Below, piece by piece: positions 23,614 to 33,573 of a stretch of 33,573 bases of DNA; within the stretch, counting starts at the first letter, position 1; each line of letters opens with the position of its first letter. The stretch spans positions 1-33,573 of the forward strand of contig CAADGB010000486.1 in NCBI GenBank assembly GCA_900696455.1, given 5' to 3'. Under the pieces are notes generated by a model. It saw only the letters and a program-made list of their open reading frames with translations, ran no database searches and was not told the DNA's origin. The translations under genes and the position numbers were made by a program. The stretch is from an uncultured delta proteobacterium. Lineage in GTDB: Bacteria; Myxococcota_A; Polyangia; Haliangiales; Haliangiaceae.

Positions 23614-27053
<3,440 letters not shown>

Positions 27054-27057
<4 letters not shown>

Positions 27058-28909
27058 CCGCGACCGTGGCGCCGACCGGCGCCGCCGACCCGCTCGACGC
27101 CGCCCTGGCCGCCGCCGGGCTCGAGCTGTGGATCGGCGCCGAGCCGACCTTCACCCGCCGCGAGTCCACCGCGCCGTGGTGGCTGTGGCAGGCCGATCCC
27201 GACGAGCCGGGCGCCGACGACAAGCGACGGCGCGCCGCGACGCTGGCGCTGGCGCTCGGCCACGACGTCGACGGCGCGCAGGTCCGCCGCGTGGTCGGCC
27301 GGCAGTACCCCGACGAGGACGCGCCGCGCTTCTGCTACGGCGTCGCCCTGCCGCGCGCCGCCCTCGCCGCCGCCCTGGCCGAGCGCGGGCCGCGACCGCC
27401 GGCCCCCGACGACGACGTGGCGGGCCTGGTCGCGGCGACGCCGGTCGCGGCGCCGGCCGCCGACGCGGCGGCGGACGCGCGGCTGGCCTGGCTCACCGTC
27501 ACCGCCGATCCGGGCGTGGTCGAGGTCAACACCGCGCCCTGCGCCGACCTCGCCACCTTCGCCGCCCACCTCGAGCAGGTGTGGGCGGCCGCCGAGGCGG
27601 CGGGACTGTCGTCGTTCCGCTGGCGCTACAACGGCGACGAGGTCGACTCCGGCGGCGGCGGCCAGCTCACCCTCGGCGGCCCCAGCGCGGCGGCGAGCCC
27701 CTTCTTCCGCCACCCCGCGCTCCTGCCGCGGCTGGTCCGCTACCTCGGCAACCACCCGGCGCTGTCGTACTGGTTCCTCGGCGAGTGCGCGGGCTCGGCC
27801 TCGCAGTCGCCGCGCCCCGACGAGGGGGTGCGCGAGCGCGGGGAGGAGCTGGGCCTGGCCTGCGCCTGGCTCGAGCGCGAGGCCGCCGCCGGCCGCGTCA
27901 CGCCGGCGCGCCTGTGGTCGACCCTGGCCCCGCTCCTGGTCGACGCCGCCGGCAACTCGCACCGCGCCGAGCTCAACGTCGAGAAGCTGTGGAACCCGCA
28001 CCTGACCGGGCGCGGCCAGCTCGGCGTCGTCGAGCTGCGCGCCTTCCGCATGCCGCGCCACCCCGCCGACATGGTGGCGGCCGCCGCGCTGGTGCGGGCG
28101 GTGGCGGCGCGCTGCGCCCTGGCCCCCTACGACGAGCCGCTCGCCGACTGGGGGGCCGAGCTCCACGACCGCTGGGCGCTGCCGTTCTTCCTCGCCGACG
28201 ATCTCGACGCCGTGCTCGACGACCTCGCCGCCCACGGCCTCCCGCTCGAGCGCCACCACGGCCGCCTGCGCCACTTCCGGGCCCAGCGCCTGGGCCAGAC
28301 CCGGGTCGGGCGCCTCCGGCTCGAGCTGTCGCGGGCCGTGGAGTTCTGGCCGCTCCTGGGCGACGTGGCGTCGCAGGAGCGCGCCACCGCCCGCCTGGTC
28401 GACGCCTCCAGCGAGCGCCTGGAGCTGGTCGCCGAGACCGAGGCCGGGACCGAGGCCGGGACCGAGGCCGACGGGCGGCTCACGGTCGCGGTCGGCGGCC
28501 ACGCCGTGATCCCGCGGGTGCAGGCCGACGGGCCGTGGCGCTACCACGTCCTCGGGCTGCGCCGCCGCCAGTACGCGCCGGCGCCCGGCCTGGTGCCCGA
28601 GCTGCCCGCCGACGAGCCGCTGGCGCTGACCGTCGCCGCCGGCGCGCACGCCGCCCGCATCACCTGGCACGCGTGGCGGCCCGGCGGCGGCGCCTACGAC
28701 GGGCTGCCGGCCACCGCCGACGAGGCCCGGGCCCGCCGCGAGGAGCGCCTGACGATCGAGGCGGTGGCGCCGGCCGCGGGCCCGGCCGCGGCGCCCCGCC
28801 GCCTGACCACCTGGAGCCTCGACCTCCGCGTCGTCGGCCTCGTCGCGGGCGCCGCCGCGGACGCCGCCGGGCCGTCGCCGGAGCCGGGCCCCCGAGGAGA
28901 CGCCGCGCC

Positions 28910-28913
<4 letters not shown>
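27054..28913 (+). CDS. Second, stand-alone DUF2126 protein (paralogue of upstream gene)
   Basis: 619 residues from a GTG overlapping the upstream stop (GTGA) and preceded by GGAG. It aligns by eye with the DUF2126 half of the preceding protein: [11 protein letters not shown] (28-38), [12 protein letters not shown] (82-93), [13 protein letters not shown] (150-162), [11 protein letters not shown] (199-209), [13 protein letters not shown] (300-312), [15 protein letters not shown] (324-338), [14 protein letters not shown]. Likely metal and nucleotide ligands (Glu157, Asn159, His303, Arg304, Glu306, Glu327) are kept, so it may be active. It lacks the transglutaminase domain, and the N-terminal EWNSLALGPGK segment of the paralogue is replaced by a Trp-rich one. 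A TEAG repeat lies near 28434-28468. A tandem duplication followed by divergence is inferred. Confidence 0.85.
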
Positions 28914-30364
<1,451 letters not shown>

Positions 30365-30383
30365 TCCCGCCCGCCCACGCCGC

Positions 30384-30602
30384 CTACGCCCACGGCGCCC
30401 GCATGCCGCGCAGGAAGACGTTGAAGAAGAACCCGGTGAGGACCGCCAGCCCGACCACGCCCGCCGCCAGGAGCGCGCCGCCGACCACGCGCGCCCGCCG
30501 GCCGGCCCCCGCCCGCGCCTTGCGGGTCAGCGCCACCCCCGGCACCACCACCGCCAGCGCCCACGCCGCCATCGCCAGCAGGTACCACGAGGCCTCGCCC
30601 AT
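30384..30602 (-). CDS. 72-residue two-helix membrane protein on opposite strand within amidoligase block
   Basis: 72 residues: helix one about 5-25 (SWYLLAMAAWALAVVVPGVAL), a basic loop TRKARAGAGRRAR, helix two about 41-63 (VVGGALLAAGVVGLAVLTGFFF) and a short tail. The basic loop would be cytoplasmic by the positive-inside rule. TACGCT lies exactly 6 bases before the ATG, which supports a real, independently transcribed gene. It is convergent with the ATP-grasp gene and divergent (30 bases) from the alpha-E gene. No family was recognised. A spurious frame is possible, but the clean helix-loop-helix pattern and promoter argue against it. Confidence 0.6.
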   Translation of the reverse strand: MGEASWYLLAMAAWALAVVVPGVALTRKARAGAGRRARVVGGALLAAGVVGLAVLTGFFFNVFLRGMRAPWA

Positions 30603-30608
30603 GCCGCC

Positions 30609-30614
30609 AGCGTA
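30609..30614 (-). promoter_or_regulatory. Putative leaderless -10 (TACGCT) of the small membrane protein
   Basis: On the minus strand TACGCT is followed by GGCGGC and the ATG at 30602, the same 6-base spacing as at the mannosyltransferase and the amidotransferase-like genes. Confidence 0.4.
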
Positions 30615-30632
30615 CCAGGGACAGCCCCGACC

Positions 30633-31604
30633 ATGATCTCGCGCGTCGCCGATCACTGCTTCTGGTTCGGTCGCTACGTCGAGCGCGCCGAGTCCACCGC
30701 CCGGCTCCTCGCCACCACCCACAGCCTCGCCCTCGACGCCGAGCTCGAGCCCGCGGCCTGCTGGCGACCGGTGGTCGTCGTCGCCGGCGAGGAGGCGGCG
30801 TGCCGCGCCCGCTGGGGCGACGACGAGGCCACCTTCGCCGACGGCGAGCGGATCGAGCACGCCCTGACCTGGGACGAGGACACCTCGGTCTCGATCCGGC
30901 GCTCGGTCGCCGCCGCCCGCTGGAACGCGCGCACGATCCGCGAGGTGGTCTCGCTCGAGGCCTGGGAGACCACCAACGAGCTCCACCTCTACCTGCGGGG
31001 CGACGCGGCCCGCGCCGACTTCGCCGATCACCGCTTCGACTTCTACCGCCGCGTCCGCGCCGGCACCCAGCTCACCCTCGGGCTCCTGCGCTCGACGATG
31101 CTCCACGACGAGCCCCTCGACTTCATCTGGCTGGGGGTGATGCTCGAGCGGGTGAGCCAGACCGCCCGCATCCTCGACGTCCACCACCACGCCTTCACCA
31201 GCGGCGCTGGCCACCACGAGGTGGTCGCGACCTCGCTGTGGCTGTCGCTCCTGCGCTCGCTGTCGGGCTACGAGCCGTTCATGAAGCGGCACCAGGGCCG
31301 GGTGGCGTCGATGGCGGTGGTGCGCTTCCTCGTCGGCGAGGAGCGCTTCCCGCGCTCGGTCGCCTACTGCGTGCGCTCGGCCTACGAGCGCCTGTGCGGC
31401 ATCCGGCCGCCGACCGCCACCGAGCTCCCCGGCGGCCAGACCCTCGAGCGGCTGCGGGTCCTCGACGAGCTGGTCCGCGCCCAGCGCCACGAGCTGCGCG
31501 ACGGCGAGGACGTGCACGAGCTCCTGACCACGGTCGTCGACGAGACCCACGCCATCTGCGAGACCCTGGGCAAGGAGCTGCTCGGCCACGATCGGGCGGC
31601 GTGA
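30633..31604 (+). CDS. Alpha-E domain protein (COG2307 / DUF403)
   Basis: 323 residues, the full length of the family. It opens with the diagnostic MISRVADHCFWFGRYVERAESTARLL and is almost wholly alpha-helical with many Glu. Further blocks are SVAAARWNARTIREVVSLEAWETTNELHLYL, FYRRVRAGTQLTLGLLRSTMLHD and FIWLGVMLERVSQTARILD. Alpha-E proteins are obligate neighbours of the permuted ATP-grasp proteins and are sometimes fused to them; they are thought to be partners or carriers in the same reaction, with no proven activity. AGGGA lies about 15 bases before the ATG. It follows the ATP-grasp gene but is separated by the opposite-strand small gene. Confidence 0.93.
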   Translation: MISRVADHCFWFGRYVERAESTARLLATTHSLALDAELEPAACWRPVVVVAGEEAACRARWGDDEATFADGERIEHALTWDEDTSVSIRRSVAAARWNARTIREVVSLEAWETTNELHLYLRGDAARADFADHRFDFYRRVRAGTQLTLGLLRSTMLHDEPLDFIWLGVMLERVSQTARILDVHHHAFTSGAGHHEVVATSLWLSLLRSLSGYEPFMKRHQGRVASMAVVRFLVGEERFPRSVAYCVRSAYERLCGIRPPTATELPGGQTLERLRVLDELVRAQRHELRDGEDVHELLTTVVDETHAICETLGKELLGHDRAA

Positions 31605-31656: not shown

Positions 31657-33573
31657 GTGCCCAACCTCCTCGCGATGTCCTTCGAGGGCGAGCTGGCGCC
31701 GTCGTTCGATCTGACCTGCCTGGAGCCGGGGCGGACCCTGCCCGACGGCTGGGGCCTGGGCTACTACCCGGGCGGCGAGCCGTCGGCCACCGTGCTCAAG
31801 GAGCCGGCGCCGCCCCAGGGCTCGATCCGCAGCCAGCTCGCGCGGGTGTGGGAGCACCTCGAGTCGTCCCTCTTCCTGCTGCACATCCGCAGCGCGCGCT
31901 GGGGCGCGATCACCGACGCCAACACCCAGCCCTTCGTCCGGAGCTGGGGGCGGCGCGACTGGATGATCGGTCACTCCGGCAGCTTGACCGCGCGCCCCGA
32001 CGAGCGCCTGGAGCGCGGCGTGTTCGAGCCGGTCGGCTCGACCGACACCGAGCTGGTCTTCTGCATCCTCATGTCGCGCTTCGCCGAGCGCGGCTGGAAG
32101 AGCATCGCCGACGCCGACCTGGCCGAGGTCCGGGGCTGGCTCGACGTCCTCGACGACGACGGCGGGCTGACGATCGCGCTCACCGACGGTCGCGACCTCC
32201 TGGTCTACGCCGACCGCGATCAGGACAGCGCGATCTTCCTCGGCCAGCTCGCGCCGCCCTACGATCGCTGCGTGCTCGGCGACGGCGACCTCGTGGTCGA
32301 CCTCGGCGCGCGCGGCACCAAGAGCCGCAAGGGCGTCATCGTCTCGTCCCTGCCGCTGCAGCCGGTGCCGGCAGCCGAGGGCGGCCAGCCCGATCCCGGC
32401 GCCCCCGGCGCCCCCGGTGACCCCGGCGCCGCCGTCGACCCGCCTCCGACCGCCGCCGCCCTGACCTGGACCCAGGTCCCGCCCGGCAGCCTCCTCGTCA
32501 TCCGCCAGGGCGCGGTGGTCGCCGACCTCGCGCCGCCGGCGCCCGGGGCGACGCCGCGGGCGTCCCTGGTCGCACCGGCGGTGCAGGCGCGCGCCGCCAT
32601 GGCCGGCGCCGCGGCGGCGGCGGTCCGGACCTACACGATCCGCCACCGCACGATCTACCGCTACGCCCAGCCCATCGAGCGCTCGACCCATCTCCTGCGC
32701 CTGACCCCGCGCTTCGACCGCATGCAGGAGCTGCTGGAGCACCACGTGACCGTCAGCGTGCCCGGGCAGTGCGCCGACTTCGAGGACGTCTTCGGCAACC
32801 AGGTCCGCCGCGTCCACATCGACACCCCGTGGTCCGAGATGGTGATCGAGGCGGTGAGCCGGGTCCGGGTCAAGGACGTGGCGCCGCTGGCCTTCCGCAC
32901 GCTCAAGGCGCGCTCGACGATCCCGCTGGTGTGGATGCCGTGGCAGCGCCAGATCATGGCGCCCTACCTGCTCCCGCCCGAGCTGCCGGAGAGCCAGCTC
33001 GACGAGCTCACCGAGTACGCGATGAGCTTCGTCAAGCGCAACGACTTCGACCTGCTCGACACCCTGCTCGACATCAACGCGACGATCTTCAAGGAGTACA
33101 CCTACCGCCAGGGCTCGACGACGGTCTTCACGACCGCCTTCGAGGTCTACGCCAACCGCCGCGGGGTGTGCCAGGACTTCACCAACCTCTTCATCTGCCT
33201 GGCCCGCCTCCTCGGCGTGCCCGCGCGCTACGTGTGCGGCTACATCTACTGTCCGCCGCCCGGCGACGACGCCGCCGGCCAGCGCGTCAACACCGTCCAG
33301 AGCGAGGCCTCCCACGCCTGGGTCCAGCTCTACCTGCCGCAGGTGGGCTGGAAGGGCTTCGATCCCACCAACGGCATCCTGACCCAGACCGAGCACGTCC
33401 GGGTCGCGGTCGGTCGCAACTACATCGACGCCACCCCGACCTCGGGCACGATCTACGTCGGCGGCGGCCCCGAGACCCTCGAGGTCGACGTCAAGGTGCT
33501 GCGCGCCGACGACGAGCCCGGCGCCGCGGCCGCGCCCGGCGACGCGGTCGCCGCCGCCGCCGCGCCCGGCGCC
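31657..33573 (+). CDS. Class II glutamine-amidotransferase-like domain fused to transglutaminase, C-terminus beyond window
   Basis: 639 residues to the right edge, with no stop seen. N-terminal domain (about 1-235) follows the YafJ/EgtC-type Ntn amidotransferases: LLAMSFEG, PDGWGLGYYPGG (29-40), FLLHIRSARWG (73-83), ANTQPF (88-93), IGHSGSL (104-110). Two key residues differ: position 2 is Pro instead of the nucleophile Cys, and the oxyanion Asn of the usual HNG is Ser107. Glutaminase activity is therefore unlikely. A Pro/Ala linker (about 236-322) leads to a transglutaminase (about 324-600) with its triad intact: Cys505 (GVCQDF), His553 (SHAWV), Asp569 (FDPTNG). The GTG start is supported by TACAGT 6 bases upstream. 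It belongs to the amidoligase-like block. Confidence 0.85.
   Translation, partial: MPNLLAMSFEGELAPSFDLTCLEPGRTLPDGWGLGYYPGGEPSATVLKEPAPPQGSIRSQLARVWEHLESSLFLLHIRSARWGAITDANTQPFVRSWGRRDWMIGHSGSLTARPDERLERGVFEPVGSTDTELVFCILMSRFAERGWKSIADADLAEVRGWLDVLDDDGGLTIALTDGRDLLVYADRDQDSAIFLGQLAPPYDRCVLGDGDLVVDLGARGTKSRKGVIVSSLPLQPVPAAEGGQPDPGAPGAPGDPGAAVDPPPTAAALTWTQVPPGSLLVIRQGAVVADLAPPAPGATPRASLVAPAVQARAAMAGAAAAAVRTYTIRHRTIYRYAQPIERSTHLLRLTPRFDRMQELLEHHVTVSVPGQCADFEDVFGNQVRRVHIDTPWSEMVIEAVSRVRVKDVAPLAFRTLKARSTIPLVWMPWQRQIMAPYLLPPELPESQLDELTEYAMSFVKRNDFDLLDTLLDINATIFKEYTYRQGSTTVFTTAFEVYANRRGVCQDFTNLFICLARLLGVPARYVCGYIYCPPPGDDAAGQRVNTVQSEASHAWVQLYLPQVGWKGFDPTNGILTQTEHVRVAVGRNYIDATPTSGTIYVGGGPETLEVDVKVLRADDEPGAAAAPGDAVAAAAAPGA

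Follow-up and report, generated by a model that had tools for sequence, protein, structure and literature searches.

The window, the whole stretch of 33,573 nucleotides analysed here, carries at its 3′ end a forward-strand open reading frame (ORF) whose GTG start codon is at 31657 and which continues past the window end. Pfam assigns it GATase_4, Bact_transglu_N and Transglut_core domains, in that order, and we refer to proteins of this type as fusions. The features of the locus are as follows.

23614..27057 (+), transglutaminase plus DUF2126 (putative amidoligase) protein; Pfam E 1.2e-291
27054..28913 (+), second DUF2126 (putative amidoligase) protein; Pfam E 9.6e-104
28910..30364 (+), circularly permuted ATP-grasp protein (PF14403/PF04174); Pfam E 1.6e-162
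30633..31604 (+), Alpha-E protein (PF04168), immediately 5′ of the fusion ORF; Pfam E 4.9e-71
31657..32530 (+), predicted pseudo-amidotransferase domain (Ntn fold), residues 1-291; Pfam, model, PDB superposition and alignments
31660..31662 (+), codon CCC of Pro2, aligned with the Ntn nucleophile Cys
31975..31977 (+), codon TCC of Ser107, aligned with the oxyanion-hole Asn (HNG)
32362..32457 (+), Pro/Gly/Ala-rich low-complexity insert spanning roughly residues 236-267, with low pLDDT and rapid evolution
32626..33573 (+), transglutaminase part, with Bact_transglu_N at residues 326-403 and Transglut_core at 468-570; 3′ end cut by the window and contig end

The adjacent genes at 23614-31604 make up an Alpha-E, circularly permuted ATP-grasp and DUF2126 amidoligase system. 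Because stop and start codons overlap by four bases at 27054/27057 and 28910/28913, joining the first three genes, the transglutaminase-DUF2126, second DUF2126 and ATP-grasp genes probably constitute one operon. The tandem DUF2126 pair (23614-28913), one member with and one without a transglutaminase domain, recurs in many homologous loci. Between the ATP-grasp and Alpha-E genes, a reverse-strand ORF (30384-30602) encodes a 72-aa two-helix membrane protein, which shows 42-57% identity in congeners (L004/L096 and L006/L090).

An in-frame stop lies five codons 5′ of GTG 31657 with no intervening start codon, and homologues share the start position, many of them opening with ATG-CCx-AAY. The start is sound, and no frame or start choice at this ORF yields a Met-Cys start. 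The encoded N-terminal domain matches GATase_4 (PF13230; class II amidotransferase) over residues 1-298 (E 3.9e-60) and displays the motifs (V/M)PNLLAMSFEG, PDGWG, HIRSA, NTQPF, HSGSL and STDTE. Sequence, Pfam and model agree in this with the sequence-only reading, which had described a class II amidotransferase pattern (PDGWG, HIRSA, NTQPF) that opens with Val/Met-Pro-Asn and reads HSG. That reading ended the domain at 32365, which is too short; it extends to about residue 291 (window position 32530), past a disordered insert at about residues 240-267.

Methods

Homologues were sought in 56 related genomes, in all bacterial species genomes and in 284 genomes of the phylum, the last of these searches contributing further fusion members and standalone relatives. 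The combined alignment comprises 17 standalone proteins and 101 distinct fusions, which fall into clade I (70 sequences, including that of the window), clade II (28) and clade III (3). The tree was built without the first two residues through a quick search with no bootstrap, and branch support is reported as SH-aLRT. An AlphaFold2 model was obtained from 62 fusion sequences (pLDDT 87, pTM 0.87); a low-confidence structure prediction for the clade II member L036 (pLDDT 70, pTM 0.53) was left out of the analysis.

Results

In class II amidotransferases (GATs), as exemplified by GlmS, Cys1 is the nucleophile and Asn98 the oxyanion Asn, while Arg73 and Asp123 bind glutamine by holding its alpha-carboxylate and alpha-amino groups. 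The modelled N-terminal domain adopts the alpha-beta-beta-alpha Ntn fold of this class. Its best superposition is with 1te5, from P. aeruginosa and itself predicted to be a glutamine amidotransferase (Z 31.1, 2.1 Å over 244 residues, 27% identity), and GlmS, PurF and EgtC follow at Z of about 21. As judged from the ends of the aligned ranges only, the model places Pro2, the first aligned residue, on the class II Cys position, opposite Cys2 of EgtC and Cys1 of GlmS and PurF. The domain combines the fold and several retained residues (Arg78, Asn89, His106, Gly108, Asp130 and Glu132) with the absence of both the N-terminal Cys nucleophile and the oxyanion Asn. By motif, we take Arg78 (in HIR) and Asp130 (in TDxE) to be the counterparts of GlmS Arg73 and Asp123.

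Comparison with known systems sets the domain apart from its nearest relatives. It shares the fold and the DGWG, HIR, NTxPF, HxG and TDxE motifs with GATase_4/YafJ-type proteins (PF13230; 1te5), but differs from them in lacking Cys2 and the HxG Asn, in being fused to a transglutaminase and in residing in an Alpha-E operon. EgtC (4zfj, 4zfk, 4zfl), from ergothioneine synthesis, shares the fold (Z about 20.7) and is a class II relative with a catalytic Cys2 whose substrate is a gamma-glutamyl amide instead of plain glutamine; the window domain scores 31.3 bits against the EgtC equivalog TIGR03442, below its cut-off of 218.65. Beta-lactam synthetase (1jgt, 1mc1), a relative of asparagine synthetase, is a fold match at Z 11. 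Its GAT domain is vestigial and lacks the Cys, and hence provides a precedent for a non-catalytic class II GAT within a fusion, but its partner is a synthetase and the fold match is more remote. A literature search found no paper on a GATase_4-transglutaminase fusion.

The fusions occur in Myxococcota, Planctomycetota, 'Candidatus Wallbacteria', Acidobacteriota, Gemmatimonadota, Spirochaetota and one gammaproteobacterial MAG, the taxonomy of MAGs being that of their record titles. All 17 standalone relatives have Cys2, and all 17 have HNG. Among the 101 distinct fusions Cys2 was found in none, although the search patterns came from Cys-less fusions and a distant case with Cys2 could escape them. 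Residue 2 in clade I is Pro in 65 of the 70 sequences, Leu in four, all of them Corallococcus/Myxococcaceae homologues, and Ser in one. The nucleophile position of clade II is occupied by Ser (21) or Thr (7), and that of the three clade III members by Ser, His and Ala; some homologues bear additional residues ahead of this position. The residue between His and Gly of HxG is Ser (41), Ala (23), Gly (5) or Asn (1) in clade I, Asn (18), Asp (5), Ser (3), Gln (1) or Thr (1) in clade II, and Ala (2) or Val (1) in clade III. Of the two residues singled out for a conservation check, Pro2 thus holds up and Ser107 does not: what clade I conserves at the HxG site is the loss of Asn, and Ser107 was discarded as a new conserved functional residue since Ala and Gly are also common there.

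Standalone proteins and fusions are split with 99% SH-aLRT, and clade I forms one side of another branch with 99% SH-aLRT. Since fusions and standalone proteins separate in the tree, the fusions are a single branch at whose base Cys2 was already absent, and its loss is old. The oxyanion Asn, in turn, was lost in clade I and, through several further losses, within clade II. One genome, G253, encodes two unlike fusions (L162 and L128), one of clade II type with HDG and one of clade III.

The glutamine pocket follows a different course. Within the clade I alignment (n = 70), Arg78, His106, Gly108, Asp130 and Glu132 are conserved at 97-100%, with Arg78 and Asp130 invariant. Clade III has lost the pocket Arg, His and Asp too, the three sites reading HTR/HTH/LAD, SCAG/SSAG/SFVG and TPVE/SPAE/SPAE; one member (L130) still shows an HTR triplet. 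A clade II group (L040, L042 and L043) retains HNG, and its HIR Arg is not alignable. Because clade III indicates that the fold survives the loss of Arg, His and Asp, their retention in clade I suggests selection for a ligand of the pocket. Values of dN/dS range over 0.10-0.50 for the pseudo-GAT domain, 0.18-0.49 for the transglutaminase and 0.51-0.87 for the linker; being Nei-Gojobori counts on GC-rich sequence, they are meaningful only in comparison between regions, and on that comparison the pseudo-GAT domain is under purifying selection, constrained like the transglutaminase. Pro15, Lys48 and Gly178 are invariant in clade I and II fusions and Trp65 is present in 96%, a pattern that the standalone relatives do not follow, and these four residues may form an interface between the two domains.

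The transglutaminase part of the window protein matches both PF08379 and PF01841 and has an intact Cys505-His553-Asp569 triad; the Cys-His-Asp triad is likewise found in all 84 fusion sequences that extend that far, and the fused transglutaminase-like enzyme looks active. The C-terminal part of the model matches 3isr (Z 26.2, 2.6 Å, 22% identity), a putative cysteine protease (transglutaminase-like) of Cytophaga hutchinsonii, which is the closest solved structure of this part and whose solved chain, unlike the window fusion, has no GAT domain.

Genomic context ties the fusion to Alpha-E. Alpha-E is present in 41 of the 54 homologous loci that have 3.5 kb or more of sequence to either side, and in 39 of them the ATP-grasp gene accompanies it. 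Across the 284 genomes of the phylum, Alpha-E is present in 46, the fusion in 32 and both in 31, so that the fusion is found in 31 of 46 Alpha-E-positive versus 1 of 238 Alpha-E-negative genomes. In the 56 close relatives, 26 of the 28 Alpha-E genomes carry the fusion; the two Alpha-E genomes that have none (G045 and G053) encode a transglutaminase that is associated with Alpha-E but lacks the GAT domain. The genetic tie of the fusion to Alpha-E is near-obligate. In the account that PMC6376114 and PMC5666114 give of Iyer et al. 2009, a peptide-tagging role has been predicted for the Alpha-E system.

Anbu is the usual Ntn-fold member of the Alpha-E system, and tests of Anbu detected no peptidase activity (PMC6376114). 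The Anbu operon, described by Iyer et al. 2009 as cited in PMC6376114 and PMC5666114, resembles the window in its Alpha-E, ATP-grasp and transglutaminase genes and in an Ntn-fold protein without detected activity; in the window, by contrast, a pseudo-GAT joined to the transglutaminase provides the Ntn fold. The draft genome to which the window belongs gave no match to an Anbu query, and its sole PF00227 match, on another contig, is of HslV-like length, so that, as far as the draft shows, the system is not of the Anbu type. Anbu was detected in 6 of the 284 genomes, of which four (G183, G220, G210 and G229) also encode fusions; these have damaged pockets, two being of clade III and two of clade II without an alignable HIR Arg. 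The presence of Anbu alongside damaged-pocket fusions is suggestive, and confined to two lineages. The idea that the pseudo-GAT strictly takes the place of Anbu was not upheld: four Anbu genomes carry a fusion, and the numbers are too small for such a claim. In two loci, L180 (within a region of 4.6-6.5 kb) and L181, Anbu lies together with the damaged-pocket fusion.

Discussion

Judging from the residues that are missing, catalysis has very probably been lost in the class II amidotransferase domain of the window. The sequence-only reading had proposed a repurposed, non-glutaminase domain, and the homologues support that proposal, with an ancient loss common to 101 of 101 fusions, the remainder of the domain kept and the domain under purifying selection. 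We class the domain as a variant of a known phenomenon because dead class II GATs, such as that of beta-lactam synthetase, have precedents.

Our preferred reading, to which we assign a probability of about 0.5, is that the pseudo-GAT domain works within the Alpha-E, permuted ATP-grasp and DUF2126 system by binding glutamine or a gamma-glutamyl ligand on behalf of the transglutaminase. A glutamyl or other amide linkage would come from the ligases encoded in the operon; the pseudo-GAT pocket would recognise glutamine or a gamma-glutamyl group and then either hold the substrate for the transglutaminase or gate it; and the transglutaminase would make or break, by transfer or cleavage, an isopeptide or amide bond. 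Candidate ligands are free glutamine and the terminus of a glutamyl peptide or glutamyl tag produced by the ATP-grasp and DUF2126 ligases. That the pocket binds such a ligand at all we hold to be slightly favoured, and the coupling between pseudo-GAT and transglutaminase we infer from the fusion. The earlier suggestion that the domain binds substrate and presents it to the fused transglutaminase is accordingly plausible where it draws on the invariant glutamine-binding Arg and Asp of clade I, and loses ground in clade III, where both are gone. The conserved Arg and Asp could also be retained for structure, which would count against a ligand, as does the clade II group in which HNG persists with an HIR Arg that cannot be aligned.

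The strongest alternative takes the pseudo-GAT domain to be a structural module only, serving folding, oligomerisation or docking with the Alpha-E or ATP-grasp protein around an empty pocket. The fusion-specific Pro15, Lys48, Gly178 and Trp65 suggest a new interface, clade III retains the domain despite a destroyed pocket, and inactive Ntn-fold scaffolds are known, such as the proteasome alpha subunits (PMC9140057). Scaffolding alone, however, leaves unexplained why none of the 70 clade I sequences departs from the glutamine-binding Arg and Asp when clade III could lose them, and we consider this alternative rather unlikely.

Far less probable is a domain that is still enzymatic, using a Ser/Thr nucleophile in clade II and the N-terminal Pro or another group in clade I. 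All 28 clade II sequences carry Ser or Thr, 18 of them with HNG, which speaks for such an enzyme, and Ntn hydrolases elsewhere employ Ser or Thr, as with Thr1 of Anbu (PMC6376114). In some clade II members (among L036, L034, L033, L038, L114, L125 and others) the Ser/Thr is preceded by 1-10 residues, and its persistence behind this propeptide-like extension can be read in the same direction, as can the retention of Pro2 in 65 of 70 clade I sequences. Yet in 10 of the 28 clade II sequences Asn has given way to Asp, Ser, Gln or Thr with Ser/Thr unchanged, implying that the two sites are uncoupled; Ser and Thr are frequent at the second residue of proteins; and the catalytic nucleophile given for class II GATs is Cys alone (PMC9140057). 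A catalytic N-terminal Pro is unlikely, Pro offering no side-chain nucleophile and being replaced by Leu in four homologues and by Ser/Thr in the sister clade. The same substitutions, together with the extra leading residues of some homologues, tell against the idea that a Pro exposed after Met removal is a feature of the family.

A compound scenario fares marginally worse than an enzymatic domain: clade II would consist of Ser/Thr class II GAT-fold Ntn hydrolases acting on gamma-glutamyl tags, and the clade of the window would be a later, ligand-binding-only derivative that gates the transglutaminase. A local loss of Cys2, or an artefact of start codon or sequencing, might be suspected from the GTG start and the draft genome, but is contradicted by the in-frame stop upstream, by the lack of any Cys2 fusion among those found and by the same Pro in congeners and many Myxococcota, some ATG-started and including named genomes (Minicystis, Polyangium), and can be set aside; the loss that the sequence-only reading had made conditional on finding neither a Cys2 homologue nor a corrected start or frameshift stands.

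Conclusions

The Alpha-E and permuted ATP-grasp system is widespread, and the role predicted for it is the synthesis or attachment of peptide tags. A pseudo-GAT domain with a kept pocket on the transglutaminase of this system would be a lead to the substrate of the system, pointing to glutamine or a gamma-glutamyl group, and the pocket may offer a handle for substrate discovery through ligand binding or co-crystallisation. The family would also lay out a series from Ntn enzyme to pseudoenzyme, running from standalone active paralogues through Ser/Thr fusions and Pro fusions to pocketless fusions.
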